The notes beneath the pieces were generated by a model that saw only the letters and a list, made by a program, of their open reading frames with translations, ran no database searches and was not told where the DNA came from. Position numbers and translations under genes: made by a program. Shown in pieces: positions 10,954 through 31,579 of a DNA stretch of 43,396 nt. Position 1 is the first letter of the stretch. Each line of letters opens with the position of its first letter. Location: the NCBI GenBank assembly GCA_029238785.1, contig JAQWFN010000036.1, positions 1 through 43,396 of the forward strand, in the 5' to 3' direction. This DNA is from Flavobacteriales bacterium (GTDB taxonomy: Bacteria; Bacteroidota; Bacteroidia; Flavobacteriales_D; Sanyastnellaceae).

Positions 10954-11574
10954 ATGCAACGTCTACTCCTTTTAAGCACCTTTTTGGTGTTTACGCTTTG
11001 TCTTTACGGACAATCTTCCAATTCCATCCACATCAAAAACGCGTATTTCATTACTGGTCAGCCCATTTTCGGTTTGGGTTTTGAGCGTGCTGTACACCCT
11101 TCTCTTTCACTCATGCTTAGCGCTGAATACGGCAGGTACGCTTCTGTGGAAGAAGAACTACTCAGTGCTAGTATAGAGAGTTACAATCTCAGTGGCTTTG
11201 GTCTTCAAGGAGAATTGAGATGGTATTGCTTTCAAGCCAAGCACGAGCAACAGCGCGGATTATTCTTAGCTGGAACATTAAAACAGCGTTGGATGACTGA
11301 ATATCAAGCTGAAGGAATATCAGCTTTTCAAAACCAGCTTGAGCTCAATAATTTGAACGTTCAAGAGCGTTGGGCCAGCGGACGTTCGATTGGATTACTC
11401 ACAGGATATCGGGTGACTTGTGGAAGCAGCAAACTCGCTTTTGAAATCCTTGCTGGAACCGCCTATGAATGGCAAGATTGGCGCAATGTTTCAAGCACTT
11501 CCACTCCCTCATCAGACAGCAAAACGTGCCGCTTTATTCCCAGAGCAGAGTTAGGCATTGTTTACACGCTCTGA
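10954..11574 (+). CDS. Small exported protein, probable outer-membrane beta-barrel
   Basis: The 206-residue protein has a clear signal peptide (1-20, LLLLSTFLVFTLCLYGQ). The mature part alternates hydrophobic and polar residues with many aromatic strand ends and short loops (GLGFERAVHPSLSLMLSAEY, FGLQGELRWYCF, LAFEILAGTAYEW) and finishes in a strand with a hydrophobic end (ELGIVYTL). This pattern fits a small eight-strand outer-membrane barrel of the kind found throughout Bacteroidetes. I do not recognise a specific family or substrate. It follows the bacilliredoxin gene by 41 bp in the same direction, but no functional link is evident. Confidence 0.65.
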   Translation: MQRLLLLSTFLVFTLCLYGQSSNSIHIKNAYFITGQPIFGLGFERAVHPSLSLMLSAEYGRYASVEEELLSASIESYNLSGFGLQGELRWYCFQAKHEQQRGLFLAGTLKQRWMTEYQAEGISAFQNQLELNNLNVQERWASGRSIGLLTGYRVTCGSSKLAFEILAGTAYEWQDWRNVSSTSTPSSDSKTCRFIPRAELGIVYTL

Positions 11575-15280: not shown

Positions 15281-18200
15281 TTACCTTAGGATGTTTACGT
15301 GTCCTTCGTAGAAAGTTGATTCCTCGCTACCCACCAGTCTGATTTTCGCTCTCCAGTTGTACACGTCATCTGCCACAAAGGTGTTGTTATTGTCTCTGAA
15401 ATCGCCCAGCCAACCTTCATTGGGGTCGTTTGTTGAGAACACCTCAATCCCCCATCGGTCAAAAATCTGAAACTCGTAGAACTCCAATAAACCTTCACCC
15501 AGAAGCACCGGTTGGAAGAAATCATTGATGTTATCATTATCCGGGGTGAAGGTGTTTGGAACGTAGAAGTTGAACTCCTCTTGCACGCTCACCTCTTTTG
15601 ATGTACTGCTCTGACATCCATCTACCGTAGCCACAACAAGGTTAATGGTGTAGGTCCCCGGCACATCGTAAGTGTGCTCCGGATTGATCTGGGTTGAAAC
15701 GTAATCATCGCCAAAATTCCAGAACCATATATCAGCACCTACCGAGTTATCAAAAAGTTGAATGCTCGGGTCGTAAACGCTCATGAGTTCTGGTTCAACA
15801 AAGAAATCAGCAATAGGAACATCAAAAACGGTAATGTAATTGTCGATAAACAATGTATCCAAGCAACCTTGATCGCTTTGAACAACGAGGTTAAGGTCAT
15901 ACACGCCATCGTTGGTATAGACATGGAAAGGGTCAGCTGCTTGACCTGAAGTTTGATCTCCAAAATTCCACAAGTAAGTATCTGCGTCTGTGGATTGATC
16001 AAGGAATTGCACTTGCAGTGGTTCACAGCCTTGGGTTAGGTTGGATGAAAAATCAGCTACTGGTGTGGGGTGAATGGTGAAAAATGACGTTGTTTCATCT
16101 ACACAACCGTAGGCGTTACTTGCGCTAAGGCTGATGGGGTAAATTCCCACTCCCTCAACTGTGAAAGCAGGCTCAGAGGTATTTGCATCACCAAATGCTC
16201 CGAAATCCCATTCAAAGTTATCTGCATAAATACTGTTGTTCGTTATTTGAACATCAATAGGATCTTGGCAGGTGCTTGTTTCGCTCATCTCGAAATTAGC
16301 GACCGGCGTTGGACTCACTACTACAGTTAGCATGAAAGTGTCTGCACAAAGCTGTAGGTTTTGAGCGATCATTTGAATATCGTAAGACAAAGGATCAGCT
16401 CCTGGGTTGAAGAAAGTGTGGTTTGGGTTGGCACCGCTACCCGTCTCGTTATCACCGAAATCCCATTGGTAGAACAATCCGTTGTTGGTTTCATTATTGA
16501 AGTTCACCGTGAAGGGACTACATCCAACGGTTTCAGCCACAGAAAAAGAAGCTTCAGGCGCTCCATAGACCGTAAAGTTTTGTGTTATGGATGCCGGACA
16601 GTCGTTTAAAGCGCTAATGACCGACATCGTCACTGGGAAGGTTTGGCCGCTTTCAAAGGTGTGAAAAGGATTAGTGACATTCGAAGTATTCCCATCACCA
16701 AAATCCCAATCAACGTTGATCACATCTGGTGTTTGGTTGATGAACTGCACCGCTTGATCTTGACAAACATCAGGCACATCCGTGGTAAACACCGGGTCTG
16801 GAGCTTCAAATACGTTGATCACAATTTGAGTGGTATCGAAACTACAGCCATTATCGGCAAACTGATACACCGTGTAAACACCAGCGTCGAGGAAAGTGTG
16901 CGTGGGACTTGGGGTGTTTGTTACGTTCAAATCACCGAAGTCGTAAGATACCGTTGTGGCTCCTTCTGAGAAATCAGTGAATTCTACCTCAAGCGGCTCA
17001 CAACCTTCCGTAAGGTTGGTGTTAAAGAAAGCGCTCACCGTGTTTGGGAGCACCGTCACCGTGTAGTCGAAGGTATCTACACCACATTCATTCGTGGTGA
17101 TGAGCGTAATGGTATAGTCTGTTGGTAAAGAATCCGTAGTGAATATATGCGTTAAGGGCTCTTCCAAGGTACTTGTTCCCCCATCGCCGAAGTCCCAATC
17201 AAAGGTATCAGGATTACCAACTGAAGTGTTTGCAATATTGATGGTCCAAGGAGAGCAGAAGAAGTCGAGATCAGTTCCAAACTCAGCCACGGGTTGAGGG
17301 AAAACCGTAATCTCATCCACTGCCACATCACTTCCACAGTAGTTTGTTGCGATGAGGCTCACTTCGTAAATCACATCGTCTGGACCTTGCTGGTAGATGA
17401 CATTTGCTGGAGTAATGTCTAGGCTACTTGTTGTAGCTAGGTCCCAGAGGAAGCTCAATTCTTGGCCCACAGAAAGGTTTTCAAAGGCCACGTCTAAAGG
17501 TGCACATCCGTTGTTAGGTGATACCGCGAAGTCAGCCATTGGCGGGTTGATGATGCTGGTTTGAGTGAAGCTAGTATCGCTACAACCAAGATCGTTAAAG
17601 GCAATAAAAGTAATATCAAAAAGGCCCTCATCAGGATAGGTGTAATTTGGTTCGAAGAGGAAATCTTCATCTGTATTTCCCCAATCCCATGTGTAAGAAG
17701 TAGCTCCTGTTGTGTTGTTTTCAATTTCAATTGCACTGTTTGTACAAGCGTTGGGATCAACAAGAATATCTGCCAAAGGCACAGGCAGTACTTCAATAGC
17801 TAAATTGATGGTGTCGCTACACCCTGTTAATGGAGAGGTATACCAATAGAACAAATCGCTTGTACCAGCACCAATGCTCGGATCAAAAATTCCAAGAGCA
17901 TCATCAACAATTCCATTTCCTTCCCATGTTCCACCGAGGGGCGAAAAGTCTTCTAAACTTTGTAAGCCAACATTTCCGCAAAACTCACTTGAGCTACCAG
18001 CATCGAGCACTGCCAAGGGAAGTACCTCTACTTCAATCGAATCAATACTATAACAAGTTCCACTTCCAAACTCCATGTATAGTGTAAAAATACCGTCGTT
18101 AGTAAGCAAAGGATCAAAAACACCTGTAGCGGCATCAATCACCCCATCACCAAACCAGTTGACATCGGCTACTGGACTAAAACCAGCAAGTTGTAGTGCG

Positions 18201-21200
18201 CCATTGTTCAAGCAAATGCTTTCATCAGGTCCTGCATCTGCAATTACAGGGGCAATCACATCAACCAAGATCGAATCGCTTGCGCCACAGCCGATGCCGT
18301 CGGTATATTCATAAACCAAGTAGTAGCTGCCAATACCCGGACTCTCAAAAATCCCCCATGGATCCGTGATCCCTGGTCCGCTCCACTCGCCCACTCCTGG
18401 AGCAATTGGGGAGAAGCCTGTTAATACTTCAGGAATTTCTTGATCACACAAAGTCAAATCAACACCCGGATTAATGATGGGTGCCGAGTTCACAAAGACG
18501 GTAACTTGGTCATTTCCCGCGCAACCCACCGCATCAACTACGGTAACACTGTAGCTTTCGGTTATGGACGGAGAAGCCCAAGGATTGGAAATCCCCGTGT
18601 TGTTCAAGCTCGTGCCACCAGACCAAGAGAAGGTGTCAAAAGGAGGGTTATCGCCCGAAGGAATGGCTTCCAATTGCACGCTGTCTCCTTCACAAATGGT
18701 AGCGTCCAGACCTATTGTTACTTCCGGTAAGGTGTACACTTCAATAGCTAGATCATCAGAGGTTTCGCAAGTTCCTGTTCCGATGGTATAGGTGAGGGTT
18801 TGAACTCCCGTAGTGCTTGGAGTAAAGAGTCCGCCAGCACTAACGTTGTTCCCAGACCAAGTTCCCCCAATAGCTAATTGCACAGGAGGAGCGTTTAAAC
18901 AAAGCGCAAAATCATTTCCGGCGAAGGCATTTTGTGGGTCAGTTACGCTTACTTCAATCGAATCAACATCGAAGCAGCCAGCAATATTGGTGTAGGTGTA
19001 ATACAAAAAGAGATCCCCCGCTTGCTGAGGAGTGAAGATGCCATCACTCGTTACGCCTTCTCCTGTCCACACACCAGTGCCATTAGCATCGCTCAAGGGA
19101 CTATAGCCCGTTAAGACCTCGGCGATGGGTTGATTGCACAGGGTCAAATCGGGTCCCGCCTCTACAATTGGTAGGGGTAAAACGTTTACATCAATGCTTT
19201 CGCTCACCACACAACCGTTGTCGTCTTCAATGGTGAAGGTATAGGTGCTTGTTGCATTTGGCGATGCGATTGGGTTGAAAGAACTTGGATCATCTAAACC
19301 TACAGCACTGGTCCAAGTAGGATTAATGTAAGGAGCAGCGCCATCGCTCACCACAGCGTTCAATTGCACCTCATCGCCAGCACAAATGTTTTCATCTGTT
19401 CCAAGATCGATTGTTGGAATTTCGAATACCTCTACTGAGAGCACATCGCTTGACAAACAAGATCCGCCGCCCAAAGTGTAAGTAAGGTTTGTTGTTCCCA
19501 CAATACTTGGGAAAAACTCACCACTTGGAGTAACGTTGTTTCCAGACCAAGTACCTCCTGGTGTTGTTGCCACAAGTTGAACTGAACTTGCTGATTCACA
19601 GAAGGTCACATCCGGACCAGCATCAGCGCTTGTTGGTTCAATCACTTCGATGTCGAGAACATCACTATTGATACAGCCGTTAGCGTCGGTAAAGGTGTAG
19701 GTTGCCGTGAAATTTCCAGCTGCACTTGGTGTGTATACTCCAGTTGGAGTAATATTGGCACCCGACCAAACCCCGGTTCCTCCTGTTGTTGGAGAGAAGC
19801 CTGCAATTTGTTCACCTACAGGCTGGTTACAAAGTGTTATAGGCAAGCCTGCTTCTACCACCGGAAGTGGATTCACAGAAAGTGTCGCATTTGTTATTCC
19901 TACACATCCGTTGGCATCTGTAACAGTCACTTGGTAGTTCGTGCTTGTTGGAGGACAAGCGTTTGGAGTAGCTATTGTTGGATCAGAGAGACCTGTAGCT
20001 GGAGACCAAGCATAGTTCTGATAAGGAGCTGTACCGCCAGATACCGAGAGTGGTAATACAGCGCAATCTCCGGCACAAATGGCATTCATAGCCGCAATAC
20101 TGGGAATCGGTAATGGGTGTACATCAAGGGTAATGCTTTCACTCGCCGGGCAGCCAATGGCTGAAGTGGCATTTACTGTATAGGTGCTCAAGCCAGTGGG
20201 CGTAGCGATTACTGTTGAGCCAGACGTTGTATTCAAGTCTGGATCAAAACTCCAAGAGTAATTCGTTGCGCCGCTAGCGCTTAAAGTTACGCTTGAGCCG
20301 TTACAGACCGTTTGGTCTGGATCTGAAGCACTTATCAAAATATCTGGTGCACTTTCTACTACGAATGACTCCGTATCGACATCGGTTCCACATTCGTTTG
20401 TAACACTTAAAGTAACCGTGAAAGATCCGTCTGAGTTGTACACAATTGTTCCTGGTGAAGCCGTGTTGGCTGAAGCAGGTGTTCCTCCGGGAAAGTCCCA
20501 AGTGTAATTGCTAATTGTTCCTCCCCCATTATCGATAATTGCGGATGGGTTTACGCTGGCTCCTTCGCAGAAGTTGGGTATGGGGTTAATTGTAACCGTA
20601 GGTGGTTCCGTGACCGATACAGGAAGGGTATAAATGGAGCTTCCACAAAGGTTGGTTACGGTTAACCTCACCGTATAATTTCCGGCTTGGGTAAAGAGAA
20701 ATTCGGGTTCAATGCTTGTTGCAGAGCCGGAGGCAAAACTAACTCCGGTGCTAGGAATCACTTCCCATAGATAGGTTTCTTGATCGCAGAGTTGAAGTGA
20801 ACTTGAAAGGTTTTCTGGAATCACGTTTAATGGCGCACAACCCGCTTGTGGATCTAGGGTAAATAGTGATTCCGGAGGTGGTGTGGCGCATATTTCTTGA
20901 GATACAGTTTGGCTACCACATGGATTCGACCCCACCATGGTAACGGTATAGGTCCCCGGATCGAAGGAAGCCGAAAATCCATTAGCGTCGTTCAAGGTTC
21001 CTCCTGTGATGGTCCAACCTGTAGCTGGAGAAATGCTCCATTGTGCAGCCATCAAACTGGTACATACACCGTTATTATTAAAGAATGCGTTAGTACTGGT
21101 ATTAACAAACTGAAAAGACGGCGTGTTCGAGCACCACTCGTTTCCGGGAAGTACATCCATAGATACCGTTGGTGGTGAACTGGTTTGAACCGGCTCGAAA

Positions 21201-22342
21201 GTAGAGGATGATTGTCCACAAGGATTCGACGCTATGATTCTCACATGAAAAGAATTAGCGAAGCCCCCTAAACTTGTCACCCCACAAGAAGAACCGTTGA
21301 ACACATGCTCAACCGCTGGTGGCGGTGGATGGGTGAAAATCTCATTTGGTGATCCATCGTTGTAAGAAACCGTGTATATCGTTCCTGGAGGATTGTTCTG
21401 CGTATTGAGAATTGGAAAGCTTAGGGTTTCAGTAGGCGCACACAAACCAATGGTATTTCCTCCACCAAGTGCTACTGAAGGGTTATTCCCAACAAAGACT
21501 TCATAAACCTCGGTTGATACGCAGCCGTTTTGTCCTGTTACGGTAACACTTAAATCGAAGAAGCCTGTTTCTGCGTATGTGTGATTCAAACTTGCCCATG
21601 TTGCTCCTGTAAAGGGCGCCGTACCATCGCCCCAATCAACAACATAAGAAGTGTTGGTAGCTTGTGTTGTTGAAGTGTTGTTAATTGAAATATCGAAGAG
21701 CGTACCCGGTGGTCCGCACATCACAAAAGGTGTAAAGATGTCCACGTCTGCAATAGACGCATCAGGCGATTCTGTGACATTAACCGTTTGACTCGTTGTG
21801 CTGCTACATCCGTTATCATCCGTTACTGTTAGGGTTACCGTGAATGAGTCCGTACCATCACCTGGTGCTAGAAATTCATGGCTTGGGTTCTGGTCTGAGC
21901 TTGTATTCCCCTCAGATCCTGGATTCCCAAAATCCCATTCGTAAGTGAGGTCGCTGCCAGAGGAGGTATTTATGAAAAGTACTTCCTCGCTGGAACAAGG
22001 GTCGTTTTGAACTACATTGAAATTGGCCACTGGATTATTGAGGACGGTGATGGTCACCTGATCGCTATCGTCGCAGTCGTCTGCTTCTAATTCTACGGTA
22101 TAGGTTGTTGTCGTAGTTGGACTAACCGTTGGATTTGCCACATCTCCAAGCCCATTTGACCAATCAAGCTCTGGGTTGACTCCTTCCACAACCGTAGGAT
22201 TTCCGCCGAGAACAACACTTTCTCCAAGGCAAATGGTTTGGTTTTCACCAGCATCTACCTCGCACTGAGCAAGAAGGTTGTGCCCCAATGTACTTCCAAG
22301 CAAGAAGAACATGAATAAATAACGTTTCAAAAAAGTAGACAT
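15281..22342 (-). CDS. Giant secreted multi-PKD protein with T9SS type B (gliding-associated) C-terminal domain
   Basis: About 2,353 residues from the chosen ATG. The N terminus (MSTFLKRYLFMFFLLGSTLG to LLAQ) is a signal peptide. The body contains about 13 PKD-like Ig domains with W-D-F-G-D type turns (YEWDFG, FDWDFGDG, YLWNFGDQ, WFWNFGDD) in the N-terminal and C-terminal thirds. Between them is a block of about ten Cys-pair modules starting AGPDxxxC (repeat entry at 17778-20112). The last 96 residues (FYVPNTFTPDNDNINDFF, FQIFDRWGIEVF, DDVYNWRAKIRLVG) are the gliding motility-associated C-terminal domain, a type B T9SS sorting signal. It is probably a cell-surface adhesin or matrix protein. 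The start at 22342 is chosen over an upstream in-frame start because a promoter lies between them and the signal peptide begins there. Confidence 0.92.
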   Translation of the reverse strand: MSTFLKRYLFMFFLLGSTLGHNLLAQCEVDAGENQTICLGESVVLGGNPTVVEGVNPELDWSNGLGDVANPTVSPTTTTTYTVELEADDCDDSDQVTITVLNNPVANFNVVQNDPCSSEEVLFINTSSGSDLTYEWDFGNPGSEGNTSSDQNPSHEFLAPGDGTDSFTVTLTVTDDNGCSSTTSQTVNVTESPDASIADVDIFTPFVMCGPPGTLFDISINNTSTTQATNTSYVVDWGDGTAPFTGATWASLNHTYAETGFFDLSVTVTGQNGCVSTEVYEVFVGNNPSVALGGGNTIGLCAPTETLSFPILNTQNNPPGTIYTVSYNDGSPNEIFTHPPPPAVEHVFNGSSCGVTSLGGFANSFHVRIIASNPCGQSSSTFEPVQTSSPPTVSMDVLPGNEWCSNTPSFQFVNTSTNAFFNNNGVCTSLMAAQWSISPATGWTITGGTLNDANGFSASFDPGTYTVTMVGSNPCGSQTVSQEICATPPPESLFTLDPQAGCAPLNVIPENLSSSLQLCDQETYLWEVIPSTGVSFASGSATSIEPEFLFTQAGNYTVRLTVTNLCGSSIYTLPVSVTEPPTVTINPIPNFCEGASVNPSAIIDNGGGTISNYTWDFPGGTPASANTASPGTIVYNSDGSFTVTLSVTNECGTDVDTESFVVESAPDILISASDPDQTVCNGSSVTLSASGATNYSWSFDPDLNTTSGSTVIATPTGLSTYTVNATSAIGCPASESITLDVHPLPIPSIAAMNAICAGDCAVLPLSVSGGTAPYQNYAWSPATGLSDPTIATPNACPPTSTNYQVTVTDANGCVGITNATLSVNPLPVVEAGLPITLCNQPVGEQIAGFSPTTGGTGVWSGANITPTGVYTPSAAGNFTATYTFTDANGCINSDVLDIEVIEPTSADAGPDVTFCESASSVQLVATTPGGTWSGNNVTPSGEFFPSIVGTTNLTYTLGGGSCLSSDVLSVEVFEIPTIDLGTDENICAGDEVQLNAVVSDGAAPYINPTWTSAVGLDDPSSFNPIASPNATSTYTFTIEDDNGCVVSESIDVNVLPLPIVEAGPDLTLCNQPIAEVLTGYSPLSDANGTGVWTGEGVTSDGIFTPQQAGDLFLYYTYTNIAGCFDVDSIEVSVTDPQNAFAGNDFALCLNAPPVQLAIGGTWSGNNVSAGGLFTPSTTGVQTLTYTIGTGTCETSDDLAIEVYTLPEVTIGLDATICEGDSVQLEAIPSGDNPPFDTFSWSGGTSLNNTGISNPWASPSITESYSVTVVDAVGCAGNDQVTVFVNSAPIINPGVDLTLCDQEIPEVLTGFSPIAPGVGEWSGPGITDPWGIFESPGIGSYYLVYEYTDGIGCGASDSILVDVIAPVIADAGPDESICLNNGALQLAGFSPVADVNWFGDGVIDAATGVFDPLLTNDGIFTLYMEFGSGTCYSIDSIEVEVLPLAVLDAGSSSEFCGNVGLQSLEDFSPLGGTWEGNGIVDDALGIFDPSIGAGTSDLFYWYTSPLTGCSDTINLAIEVLPVPLADILVDPNACTNSAIEIENNTTGATSYTWDWGNTDEDFLFEPNYTYPDEGLFDITFIAFNDLGCSDTSFTQTSIINPPMADFAVSPNNGCAPLDVAFENLSVGQELSFLWDLATTSSLDITPANVIYQQGPDDVIYEVSLIATNYCGSDVAVDEITVFPQPVAEFGTDLDFFCSPWTINIANTSVGNPDTFDWDFGDGGTSTLEEPLTHIFTTDSLPTDYTITLITTNECGVDTFDYTVTVLPNTVSAFFNTNLTEGCEPLEVEFTDFSEGATTVSYDFGDLNVTNTPSPTHTFLDAGVYTVYQFADNGCSFDTTQIVINVFEAPDPVFTTDVPDVCQDQAVQFINQTPDVINVDWDFGDGNTSNVTNPFHTFESGQTFPVTMSVISALNDCPASITQNFTVYGAPEASFSVAETVGCSPFTVNFNNETNNGLFYQWDFGDNETGSGANPNHTFFNPGADPLSYDIQMIAQNLQLCADTFMLTVVVSPTPVANFEMSETSTCQDPIDVQITNNSIYADNFEWDFGAFGDANTSEPAFTVEGVGIYPISLSASNAYGCVDETTSFFTIHPTPVADFSSNLTQGCEPLQVQFLDQSTDADTYLWNFGDQTSGQAADPFHVYTNDGVYDLNLVVQSDQGCLDTLFIDNYITVFDVPIADFFVEPELMSVYDPSIQLFDNSVGADIWFWNFGDDYVSTQINPEHTYDVPGTYTINLVVATVDGCQSSTSKEVSVQEEFNFYVPNTFTPDNDNINDFFQPVLLGEGLLEFYEFQIFDRWGIEVFSTNDPNEGWLGDFRDNNNTFVADDVYNWRAKIRLVGSEESTFYEGHVNILR
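17778..20112 (-). repeat. Three tandem triads of Ig-like modules inside the giant protein
   Basis: This protein-level repeat covers about 780 residues in ten modules of about 78. Three module types alternate in a fixed order: III (PxIxLGxDxxICxGDxVQL, ending TVxDxxGC), I (EAGPDLTLCNQP, then GVWTGEGVT, GIFTP, GC) and II (DAGPDxxxC, then GGTWSGNN, GxFxPS, LTYTxGxGxC). Type III modules begin near 20112, 19418 and 18724, so the period is about 694 bp, or 231 residues. A tenth module ends the block. Each module has one conserved Cys near its start and one near its end, likely a disulphide. I infer growth by duplication of a three-domain unit. Confidence 0.75.
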
Positions 22343-22386
22343 AGCTAGGCGAAAAAGTAGTGATTTCCAGAGGTGAAACCATGAAT

Positions 22387-22417
22387 CAAAAGTAATGGTT
22401 GCATCAGCCAGAAACAA
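22387..22417 (-). promoter_or_regulatory. Complete Bacteroidetes promoter for the giant secreted gene
   Basis: On the reverse strand a TTG (22417-22415) is followed after exactly 20 bp by TACTTTTG (22394-22387). This matches the two-part Bacteroidetes promoter, TTG at -33 and TAnnTTTG at -7. Transcription would start near 22380, leaving a leader of about 38 nt before the ATG at 22342. It is the best-formed promoter in the window. Confidence 0.8.
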
Positions 22418-29092: not shown

Positions 29093-29872
29093 ATGGCTTC
29101 AGTGCGAAAAACATATTTAAAGCCCCAATTTTGGGGCTTTTTTCTGCTCTTGACTTTCATGAGCCAAGCTGCTTTTGCTCAAAACACCCCCTTCAAAAAG
29201 GGCGAGCAGCTCAAGTATGAGTTGGTTTACAATTGGGGTTTGATATGGGCTAAGGCCGGAGCTGTGACCTTCACTGTTGGCGATACGCTAGTCGACAAAA
29301 AAAAGTATTTCCACTTTCATAGCTATGGAACAAGCTATGAGCGTTGGGATTGGTTTTACGAAGTGCGCTCTACCTACGAGTCTTGGGCCGATGAGAACAT
29401 GGCATCGCAGCGCTTTATCCGAAATGGAAAAGAAGGTTCCAATTTTTATAACCGCGTTTATGATGTAAAACCTTCAGGAATTTACGCTACTTTCAAAGAT
29501 GAAAAAGGCAACACTACCTACAAATCCATGCCCTATTCGCCTGAAGCAAGGGACGTGATTACCGCAGTGTATTACTGCAGGACTTTGGACTTTGATCGCT
29601 ATCAAAAAAACGATTCCATTCCTTTGACCTTTTTTCTTGACGGCAACATTTTCCCAAGCTACGTGCGTTTTCTTGGCGAAGAAGAATGGGTTCATCCAAA
29701 AACGGGTGTCGTTCATCAATGCTGGGTGTTCAAACCAAAGCTGATCGAGGGAACCGTTTTTAAAGCAGGCGAAAACATGACCGTTTACGTCACCAAAGAC
29801 AAACTCAAGATTCCGGTGTACATTGAAACCGACCTAGTTGTGGGTAAGGCTAAGGTGTTTTTATTGGAATAA
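29093..29872 (+). CDS. DUF3108 exported protein
   Basis: The 259-residue protein has an N-terminal signal (YLKPQFWGFFLLLTFMSQAAFAQ) and then the DUF3108 pattern: PFKKGEQLKYELVYNWGLIWAKAG near the start, a WDWFYEVRSTYESW segment, a DVITAVYYCRTLDF centre and a C-terminal barrel-like part (KLKIPVYIETDLVVGKAKVFLLE). DUF3108 proteins are periplasmic, of unknown role, and resemble lipid- or lipoprotein-binding barrels. The start lies 3 bp after the DUF1573 stop. Unusually, an intrinsic terminator hairpin (29119-29143) sits inside codons 9-17, so the signal-peptide code and the terminator share the same bases. A second ATG at 29158 would remove the signal and is unlikely. Confidence 0.85.
   Translation: MASVRKTYLKPQFWGFFLLLTFMSQAAFAQNTPFKKGEQLKYELVYNWGLIWAKAGAVTFTVGDTLVDKKKYFHFHSYGTSYERWDWFYEVRSTYESWADENMASQRFIRNGKEGSNFYNRVYDVKPSGIYATFKDEKGNTTYKSMPYSPEARDVITAVYYCRTLDFDRYQKNDSIPLTFFLDGNIFPSYVRFLGEEEWVHPKTGVVHQCWVFKPKLIEGTVFKAGENMTVYVTKDKLKIPVYIETDLVVGKAKVFLLE
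29119..29143 (+). terminator. Intrinsic terminator embedded in the DUF3108 signal-peptide codons
   Basis: Arm AAAGCCCCAA (29119-29128) pairs perfectly with TTGGGGCTTT (29131-29140), and the T run continues to 29143 (six T in a row). By form it is one of the strongest rho-independent terminators here. It lies 30 bp after the DUF1573 stop but also 26 bp inside the next gene, so it may act as an attenuator for that gene. Confidence 0.85.
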
Positions 29873-29885
29873 GTTTATCTTTTCG

Positions 29886-29910
29886 TCTTCAGGTGATTTG
29901 AAGATTTTTT
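29886..29910 (+). terminator. Rho-independent terminator after the DUF3108 gene
   Basis: TCTTCA (29886-29891) pairs with TGAAGA (29899-29904) across a 7-nt loop, followed by six T. It lies 14 bp after the stop at 29872. The short AT-rich stem makes it moderate in strength. Confidence 0.65.
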
Positions 29911-29950
29911 GAAGCCAGAACCCCAATCACACCTTATTTAAAAACACCCT

Positions 29951-29971
29951 GGGGACAGCACCCCTGTCCCC
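29951..29971. repeat. Perfect 8-bp stem hairpin GGGGACAG/CTGTCCCC
   Basis: GGGGACAG (29951-29958) and CTGTCCCC (29964-29971) flank a 5-nt loop. There is no T-tract on either side, so it is not a classical terminator. It could be a processing signal, a barrier to 3' decay or part of a dispersed repeat. Confidence 0.8.
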
Positions 29972-30090
29972 TGACATAAAGGTACAAAGCAAAAAAACAT
30001 CGCGCTTGACGACTTTACTTTCGATAAGTTTTCTTTTGTGCTTGAAAAAACTGAGTTTGGATCATCTAAAATTCAGCCTCAAATCCAACA

Positions 30091-30118
30091 TCTCGAGCCC
30101 CGACTCTCGAGCCCTAAG
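30091..30118. repeat. Tandem heptamer cluster A (TCTCGAG-type)
   Basis: Four consecutive 7-mers read TCTCGAG, CCCCGAC, TCTCGAG, CCCTAAG. Units 1 and 3 are identical. The consensus YCYCGAN is the same as in cluster C at 30506-30540. Confidence 0.7.
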
Positions 30119-30155
30119 CAAAACCTTCAGGCTTCATCGTGACTTCCTCTTCTTT

Positions 30156-30185
30156 GTCTTGATACAAAGAAGCAAAGATCAAGAC
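30156..30185. repeat. Inverted repeat GTCTTGAT/ATCAAGAC
   Basis: GTCTTGAT (30156-30163) is the exact reverse complement of ATCAAGAC (30178-30185), with a 14-bp A-rich spacer. A second overlapping inverted pair (CTTTGT with ACAAAG) uses the left arm, so two alternative hairpins are possible. Confidence 0.7.
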
Positions 30186-30416
30186 TGAAGTTCAATCCCT
30201 TGAACTGCTGAAGCAATAAAAAACATCTCCACCCAAACTCGCTATCGCTCAAACAGTGGGTTCCGATGCCTTTTATTACTTCGCATTTCTACGGATCACT
30301 CACTTAGGTCGGCCCTTTTTTTTAGAGTGAGAATGAAATTGAGTGCGTAAAAGATGCATTCTGGATTAAGACTATATCATCCCATCTCAAGAATTTCGCA
30401 ACAAGTATCCAGAAAT

Positions 30417-30444
30417 GAATTAAGAATGACGAATTAGGAATTTT
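30417..30444. repeat. Tandem heptamer cluster B (GAATTAN-type)
   Basis: Four consecutive 7-mers read GAATTAA, GAATGAC, GAATTAG, GAATTTT. Each begins GAAT. The unit length matches clusters A and C, but the sequence is different. Confidence 0.7.
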
Positions 30445-30505
30445 TGAAGGCGGGTAGTAATGATGAACTCTGGAAAACGTCCATTAAAAGACCTAAACGC
30501 AGGTA

Positions 30506-30540
30506 TCTCGTATCTCGACTCCCGAATCCCGACTCCCATC
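30506..30540. repeat. Tandem heptamer cluster C (TCYCGAN-type), abutting cydB
   Basis: Consecutive 7-mers read TCTCGTA, TCTCGAC, TCCCGAA, TCCCGAC and TCCCATC, and the last reaches the cydB stop codon at 30539. Units share TCYCG. This is the same family as cluster A, 390 bp away. Confidence 0.75.
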
Positions 30541-31579
30541 AATAGCTTGTTTCGTCCATTTCAACTTTTCCTTTGAAGGTTTTGTAGACAAAGCCAAAGT
30601 AGAACGCTATTAGCGGAACACCTATGGCGGCAATGGTGAGGAGAATTTTTAGGGTTTTTGTTGATGAAGCCGAATTGTAAATATCTAGGCCTGCTACATC
30701 TGGATTGGTGGATGGTAAAAGGAGCGGGAATTGCTGAATAAACACCAACATCATCATCAAAGCAATGATCAGCGAGGAGGCAGCAAAGGCAAGTGGATAT
30801 TTCTTTTTCTTCACCCATTTCGTCAGTAAAACCAAAAGAATCATCACCAATAGAGGAACAACGAATAACCAAGGATGGACTTCCATACGTGCAATAAACT
30901 GAGGATAAAAAATCACGGTAACTACGCTCAATAACGCAAAGAGTGTTAAGAAAATGCGCAAAGACCATCGAATCATGATGGTGAGCTTTGCATAGAGACG
31001 ACCTTCTGTTTTCATCGATAAAAACACAGCGCCATGAAGTGCATACAAACCAACAAGCGTTAGTCCGATTAAAATGGGGTAAGGCTTCAAGAAAAATAAC
31101 AATTCGCCATGGAACTCTTGTTGTTCGTTAAGGGGCAAACCAATGATCACATTCCCCAAGGCAACACCAAGTAATACGATAATCACCAGGCTTGAAAGTG
31201 AATAACTGACATCCCAAAACTGACGCCACCATTTCATGGGTTCTTTACTTCTGAACTCGATAGAAATGGCCCTTCCAATAATTGCCGCAAGCAAGAGCAT
31301 AAAAGGCACGTAGAAGGCGGAAAAAGCACTTGCATAAACAATAGGGAAACCAGCAAATAAGGCTCCTCCTGTGATGACCAGCCACACTTCATTTCCGTCC
31401 CAAAGCGGACCAACAGCGTTTAAGGCGATTCTTCTACTGAGGTCTTTTTTGAAAAACAAATGCAGCACACCTGCTCCCAAGTCGAAACCGTCTAAAATGG
31501 CATAGGCGGTGAAGGTGGCTCCAATGACCAAGTACCACCATGTTTGAAAGTCTACTCCTAAAAGATATCCGGTTTCCAT
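30539..31579 (-). CDS. cydB: Cytochrome bd quinol oxidase subunit II
   Basis: The 346-residue membrane protein has about eight to nine hydrophobic helices. The N-terminal region (WWYLVIGATFTAYAILDGFD, then NAVGPLWDGNEVWLVITGGA) is the conserved CydB signature. It pairs with CydA in the inner membrane to oxidise quinol and reduce oxygen to water at low oxygen tension. Length is slightly below the 379 of the E. coli protein, normal for the phylum. Its ATG overlaps the cydA stop in a TAATG arrangement, so the two are translationally coupled. No CydX-like small gene or cydCD is seen next to it; its stop touches heptamer cluster C. Confidence 0.95.
   Translation of the reverse strand: METGYLLGVDFQTWWYLVIGATFTAYAILDGFDLGAGVLHLFFKKDLSRRIALNAVGPLWDGNEVWLVITGGALFAGFPIVYASAFSAFYVPFMLLLAAIIGRAISIEFRSKEPMKWWRQFWDVSYSLSSLVIIVLLGVALGNVIIGLPLNEQQEFHGELLFFLKPYPILIGLTLVGLYALHGAVFLSMKTEGRLYAKLTIMIRWSLRIFLTLFALLSVVTVIFYPQFIARMEVHPWLFVVPLLVMILLVLLTKWVKKKKYPLAFAASSLIIALMMMLVFIQQFPLLLPSTNPDVAGLDIYNSASSTKTLKILLTIAAIGVPLIAFYFGFVYKTFKGKVEMDETSY

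Follow-up and report, generated by a model that had tools for sequence, protein, structure and literature searches.

Intergenic heptamer arrays are known from cyanobacteria as STRRs, and small dispersed intergenic repeats also as the REP/REPIN sequences that occur with RAYT. In Xanthomonas and Nostoc, G-rich repeats with a period of 7 and the unit GGGANTN form convergent pairs and lie close to the gene on their 5′ side; the available portion of that report describes them as generally not associated with mobile elements and makes no mention of S23, four helix or intervening (Rehm 2015, PMC4692102). TAACTGA arrays occur in five Bacteroidetes, several of them mixed with other heptamers, and the part of that paper at hand demonstrates no role for them (MacGregor 2015, PMC4679880). 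Slippage, regulation and G-quadruplexes are the explanations of bacterial heptamer arrays offered in these portions of the two papers (PMC4679880, PMC4692102). The 23S rRNA intervening sequences (IVS) have terminal inverted repeats that form a stem cut by RNase III and a protein, S23p/IVP, with no known function, and in the Coxiella IVS two or three tandem heptamers (GACAGAT) precede the S23p start, according to the accessible sections of the paper (Warrier 2016, PMC4990558). A four-helix-bundle gene also lies behind guanylate kinase in Flavobacterium columnare, in a text whose available part lacks the word heptamer (PMC5524665).

The locus compared here lies in a window of 43,396 bases, by which we mean the whole stretch of DNA analysed, and has heptamer arrays at both ends of one unit, G-rich to the left and C-rich to the right, a two-ended criterion that we propose here for the class and that does not come from the published IVS definition. 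By description only it is like the STRRs, and it shares with REP/REPIN sequences the character of a small dispersed intergenic repeat, but it lacks a stable hairpin, and Y1_Tnp had no match in the genome. The 23S IVS with its S23p/IVP gene is likewise a small element with inverted ends, and members of its IVP family sit between converging arrays both in this genome and on plasmids, whereas the window unit lies outside rRNA, between two protein genes, lacks an IVP gene (PF05635; an ORF search of the window gave no IVP-like ORF) and has non-complementary ends. With the Xanthomonas and Nostoc repeats it shares tandem GGGANTN heptamers, two or more of which stand on its minus strand (GGGAGTCGGGATTCGGGAGTC), but its locus holds no GGGAATC unit (of the 12 array loci of this genome, 1 has such a heptamer beside a unit), the array has three consecutive G-tracts instead of four (at least four occur in 6 of the 12 loci), and the other end is GAATKAN. 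TAACTGA arrays are similar in being intergenic and missing from the corresponding site of a close relative but have another unit and, in the parts described, neither paired ends nor an element; the earlier note on this DNA knew of no described role for such repeats in Bacteroidota, where heptamer arrays had already been reported, with no role demonstrated (PMC4679880). Heptamer repeats and IVS elements are each already known, and the general link between them is the new part; none of the papers listed in searches of the open-licence literature dealt with it, the nearest being the heptamer remark on the Coxiella IVS in the portion available (PMC4990558). Such a link would give the arrays an origin and the IVP protein an element, may account for a type of bacterial repeat that has been known for a long time and is testable via sister strains and RNA excision.

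The composite unit and its surroundings

Three clusters of heptamers had been noticed in one intergenic region, and pattern matching against shuffles of the window places all three far above chance. Three consecutive TCYCGAN units, with up to two mismatches, matched four times (at 30091, 30506, 30513 and 30520), always in this same region, as against 0.02 matches expected and with four matches reached in none of 100 shuffles; the corresponding figures for GAATKAN were two matches (30417 and 30424), 0.05 expected and one shuffle in 100. The positions first given for the clusters were off by no more than a few bases; Table 1 lists the right array by its period-7 stretch, and TRF called 30503–30517 and 30512–30537 in that array and 30417–30442 in the left one. 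The count of three does not stand in its original sense, since alignment of the copies revealed that the GAATKAN and TCYCGAN arrays bound one unit with a core of ~65 nt; the cluster at 30091, the weakest of the three, is a solo array.

Table 1. Features of the intergenic region and its flanking genes (window coordinates).
Feature	Position	Strand	Remarks
DUF3108 gene, other flank	29093–29872	+	converges on cydB-like gene
40-nt stretch with GGGGACAGCACCCCTGTCCCC	29947–29986	+	83% to G000:C38
Solo C-rich array, weaker	30091–30118	+	TCTCGAG-CCCCGAC-TCTCGAG-CCC, three units, 1 mismatch
Separate dispersed repeat, 239 nt	30121–30359	+	90% identity to G000:C51:313–550
Left array of composite unit	30417–30443	+	GAATTAA-GAATGAC-GAATTAG-GAATT, G-rich strand on +
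Core of composite unit, ~65 nt	30437–30502	+	sequence model R1
Right array of composite unit	30503–30537	+	GTATCTCGTATCTCGACTCCCGAATCCCGACTCCC; minus strand reads GGGAGTCGGGATTCGGGAGTC...
Cytochrome bd oxidase subunit II gene (PF02322)	30539–31579	−	flank abutted by right array

The core was found at six places in this genome (G000, 3.11 Mb) by model R1, five of them full and one cut by a contig start; the model was built from five of the six copies, the one at the contig start being a new match, and two further matches in the genome are weak (E 0.06 and 0.46). Among 99 related genomes R1 had no convincing match, and weak ones (E 0.0015–0.008, one in each of six genomes) were taken as chance. 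Pairing of the two array families was assessed independently of the core by counting a GAATKAN chain wherever it exceeded the shuffled 95th percentile. Such a chain lay to the left of 7 of the 12 TCYCGAN arrays of the genome, on the same strand and 38–125 nt off, whereas the three other combinations of side and strand gave 0 of 12 each; the remaining five arrays had no left partner by this test.

In the window, the right array begins 1 nt past the stop codon (30539–30541) of the cytochrome bd subunit II gene. The two arrays of the unit, which belong to different families, do not pair (duplex −5.9 kcal/mol versus a shuffled mean of −8.9). A stable RNA or terminator was considered and rejected: the whole unit folds no better than shuffles (z +1.0), and no Rfam family matched in the window at gathering scores. 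No GAATKAN partner was seen for the solo array in its flanks, which were inspected by eye only, and the segment around it (30085–30122) folds as a hairpin (z −2.4). The neighbouring 239-nt repeat, which contains TTCTTTGTCTTGATACAAAGAAGCAAA and whose copy at C51 (L002) is followed by a short TCYCGAN-like stretch, has partial matches in G001, G025 and G006, and 30115–30370 is well structured as RNA (z −2.9). Elsewhere in the window, at 15281–22417, lies an ORF of 2378 aa whose final ~220 residues are similar to the termini of several large ORFs found in stretches of the same-genus congener (G001).

Distribution and placement of the arrays

Both unit families recur throughout the genome and not at the chance level that the earlier note had set as the test. 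TCYCGAN pairs (TCYCGANTCYCGANTC) gave 24 matches, in 12 distinct arrays, and GAATKAN triplets (GAATKANGAATKANGAAT) 13 matches, in nine arrays, while the control, the same pattern read backwards, gave zero for each. TCYCGAN pairs were present in 10 of 100 genomes (24 matches in G000, 41 in G019, 39 in G031 and one to three in seven others), the reversed control matching four times across the 99 relatives; GAATKAN triplets were present in 16 of 100, with 12 control matches in the 99 relatives, eight of them in two genomes. The array pattern is also present in 45 IMG/VR stretches. In the array-rich relatives G031 and G019 (L258–L260, L268, L272–L275) several arrays lie no more than a few hundred bases from a contig end, so that short-read assemblies may undercount such arrays.

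A motif-free scan of 286,259 bases found three period-7 arrays at a score of at least 13, versus a shuffled mean of 0.2. All three belong to the TCYCGAN and GAATKAN families, so this sample gives no sign of a general seven-base copying process, which was accordingly set aside. A larger sample of the genome (865,484 bases) held four arrays at that score (three without the window), one of them of another unit (CCAAATT), and 904,220 bases of the congener held one, also of another unit; the motif-free excess over the congener is therefore small. At a score of at least 15, the own sample held six arrays at lag 21 and three at lag 7, 21 being three times seven.

The arrays mostly follow a rule of position relative to genes. 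Read along the G-rich strand, the nearer called ORF was on the 5′ side in all nine scored TCYCGAN arrays (3 of 12 unscored) and in seven of eight scored GAATKAN arrays (1 of 9 unscored), a small called ORF overlapping two scored arrays of each family; the G-rich words GGGA, GAGA and GAAT had no such polarity in the intergenic DNA of the genome (fractions 0.41–0.56). Exceptional is the left array of the window itself, 544 nt from its 5′ gene and 99 nt from the gene on the other side. On the G-rich strand, seven arrays have their start between −7 and 6 nt from a stop codon, and others lie 24–88 nt from a start codon, so that the suggested link to convergent gene ends is right in part. In the relatives G031, G019 and G032 the edge rule is weak (12 versus 6, with crude gene calls).

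Beyond these genomes, 80 loci with TCYCGAN arrays were analysed out of at least 120 stretches listed; the 80 come from many phyla (Xanthomonas and other Lysobacterales, cyanobacteria, Acidobacteria, Vibrio, Chloroflexi and others), a mix that does not amount to a taxonomic census. A G-rich period-7 array lay within 250 nt to the left of the C-rich array at 23 of the 80 listed loci, and at one of the 23 also to the right. Gene calls at these loci are crude, with 49 arrays falling within called ORFs that are probably spurious, the DNA being GC-rich, and six unscored, and of the 25 scorable arrays 21 hug the 5′ gene (21 versus 4; medians 11 versus 158 nt).

We compared 18 own array loci with stretches of the congener and judged the five at which a gene next to the array could be aligned; loci lacking such a gene (e.g. 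C91, C33) did not enter the five. The genes that flank the window unit have orthologues there (cytochrome bd subunit II, 92%; DUF3108, 81–82%). Neither the TCYCGAN nor the GAATKAN pattern matched anywhere in the congener, and no array of these families was seen in it at the five judged loci (C5, C32, C39, C44 and C92, with C39, C44 and C92 judged by eye). At C32 this genome has 129 nt, comprising a GAATKAN-type array, a spacer and a TCYCGAN array, flush with both stops, where the convergent genes of the congener have 7 nt between their two stop codons; at C5 the congener has instead a gap of 566 nt that contains an open frame of ~170 codons. Presence in this genome may reflect gain and not loss in the congener. 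At C44 (L037, ~1550–1780) there is also a tandem repeat with a 53-bp period and CGACCCCGCTGGG, in about four copies, which was not seen at the congener locus.

IVP genes between arrays and a proposed origin of the unit

The rule of a G-rich array to the left and a C-rich array to the right led us to genes of the 23S_rRNA_IVP family (S23, four-helix-bundle). At C92 of this genome, an ORF flanked by TCYCGAN-type arrays, G-rich on its left and C-rich on its right, matches PF05635 (E 7.6e-20), and no IVP was found in the congener's C92 stretch. A second IVP gene (C36) lies between inverted 21-mer arrays, these two being the copies known from the stretches examined, and repeats of both bracketing kinds recur in intergenic regions of the genome. 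The 21-mer arrays at C36 (CCTAAACCGGAGCAAAGCGAC and its complement) occupy 11026–11105 and 11806–11860 of L430; L081 (3621–3681) is also listed for this array, and inverted 21-mer arrays surround an IVP gene in the congener (L281, 1–600, by eye only). Further IVP ORFs are array-flanked in Phormidium (L137), Xanthomonas codiaei (L139), G031 (L263, L264) and L203, with the opposite polarity at L263, whereas L273 has an array on one side only and L250 has none. The search for IVP ORFs covered all 120 listed stretches, and an IVP-like ORF was also seen in L307 (E 3.5e-5). In L203 (4447–4954), the IVP-like ORF sits tightly between TAATTCG and CGAATTA arrays, i.e. GAATTAN-type element ends.

To avoid selection by arrays, plasmid IVP genes were picked by protein alone, giving a set of 23 loci from which near-duplicates, partial matches and some others had been excluded. 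By script, 10 of 18 were bracketed by a G-rich array on the left and a C-rich array on the right within 100 bp, versus 1 of 83 other complete annotated genes in these stretches. Counted by reading, and within 300 bp, 11 of the 18 were bracketed (12 with L411, which is mixed) and none had the reverse polarity. Two of the five additional IVP genes were bracketed, by nearly the same element in both; at nine of the 23 loci the full pattern was lacking or confined to one side. Among 18 partners, the best duplex was the one between the actual left and right flanks at 10 of 18 loci. In 11 of the 12 bracketed plasmid IVP loci with annotated neighbours, the left array begins no more than 13 nt from the end of the upstream gene, as the edge rule of this genome would have it.

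Reciprocal empty sites were found on three Nostoc plasmids (pC052_D, pNsp_a and pNsp_c) that have the genes A-B-C in common. The A-B junction carries an array-IVP-array block in pC052_D and pNsp_a, where pNsp_c has 3 bases from stop to start, and the B-C junction carries a different block in pNsp_c, where the stop and start codons overlap in pC052_D. The A-B insert spans array to array, and the B-C insert has 37 further bases past the right array. In these cases, then, heptamer arrays and IVP gene arrive together, and inspection of the sites by eye suggests a target-site duplication of three to five bases (ATG; TTCTA), overlapped by array letters.

Set beside the pairing rule, the core family, the absence from the congener and the array-IVP-array anatomy with its reciprocal empty sites elsewhere, the stretch 30417–30537 is probably one dispersed intergenic unit of ~120 nt and a gene-less, diverged relative of IVP insertion elements. 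It shares its plan, its polarity and the sequence of its right-hand unit with the ends of the C92 element; having neither an IVP gene nor complementary ends, it is called a relative by inference and not a member of the class. In the class plan that we propose, a G-rich heptamer array would form the left edge and a C-rich one the right, with the outer edges near the neighbouring genes, and full-length members would carry an IVP (S23p) gene between arrays that are often mutual reverse complements. In the transcript, the two arrays could then pair as a stem that encloses the IVP gene, by analogy with the 23S IVS. Array-bounded units would insert at gene junctions, harming neither neighbour, and in the lineage of this genome the GAATKAN array, core and TCYCGAN array would have arrived as a block. 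The window unit may descend from IVP elements and may have moved, once with help in trans, rather than been copied by recombination; heptamer number would now change by slippage while gene-less forms persist. More tentatively, bacterial intergenic heptamer repeats at large (GGGAATC of Xanthomonas, the STRRs of Nostoc and those of Bacteroidota) could be the termini of one widespread, unrecognised class of IVP mobile elements that insert at gene or operon junctions with or without the gene, 23S IVS being the best-known site and the seven-base period being made by movement, a generalisation that we regard as possible but short of probable.

Heptamers, as Mrazek reportedly found in 2007, are the commonest long simple sequence repeats of bacteria, with slippage said to be the proposed cause, and we count this for the somewhat unlikely alternative that the arrays are ordinary GGGAATC/GGGANTN repeats grown by polymerase slippage beside genes, their pairing and edges marking where growth was tolerated. 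The unit on the G-rich strand fits the (GGGANTN)n of Rehm 2015, the same portion of that paper reports, for Xanthomonas, pairs that converge and a position close to the 5′ neighbour (PMC4692102), and the six own loci with at least four consecutive GGGN4 tracts (counted anywhere in the locus) point the same way; but slippage does not predict a second array family, different from the first, whose side and strand are constant, a shared core, an array-spacer-array arrangement at C32 where the congener has 7 nt, or arrays that are gained and lost together with an IVP gene. If the arrays were instead recombination substrates, with array-ended intergenic cassettes swapped or gene-converted among loci and no dedicated mobility, one could understand why arrays stay while the spacers between them vary (core, 21-mer repeats, unrelated DNA or IVP gene), yet C32 and the Nostoc plasmid sites resemble insertions where no array had stood, and we consider this distinctly unlikely.

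It is less likely still that the arrays are selected as protein- or RNA-level signals, such as a terminator, an insulator or a G-quadruplex. Their position directly behind stop codons would suit such a role, but the window unit has no stable RNA fold, its array has only three consecutive GGG tracts, and the arrays are absent at the five judged congener loci and patchy in relatives (10 of 100 genomes for TCYCGAN pairs). G-rich arrays that converge are oriented like the repeats of fused telomeres, which we count for the very remote alternative of terminal repeat addition by a resident telomerase-like RT, considered together with REP-type spread by RAYT. A bacterial enzyme, DRT10, does make tandem-repeat cDNA, as stated in the available part of its description (PMC12632851), but neither RVT_1 (PF00078) nor Y1_Tnp had a match at E 0.001 in G000, G019 or G031. 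Among the three origins proposed in the earlier note, namely mobile-element traces, protein-binding arrays and an unusual copying process, the evidence favours mobile-element traces, and the scan of 286,259 bases gave no sign of the last in its general seven-base form.

As to the reach of the IVP family, the C92 protein as query matched one plasmid record and had no relative in viral contigs, and three other IVP queries matched 29, 13 and 32 plasmid records. IVP genes were seen inside type III-B and type I-D cas clusters (L407, L410 and L411, on Picosynechococcus, Anabaena and Pseudanabaena plasmids), between ribonucleotide reductase genes (L418) and between an Fe-S assembly gene and sufB (L417).
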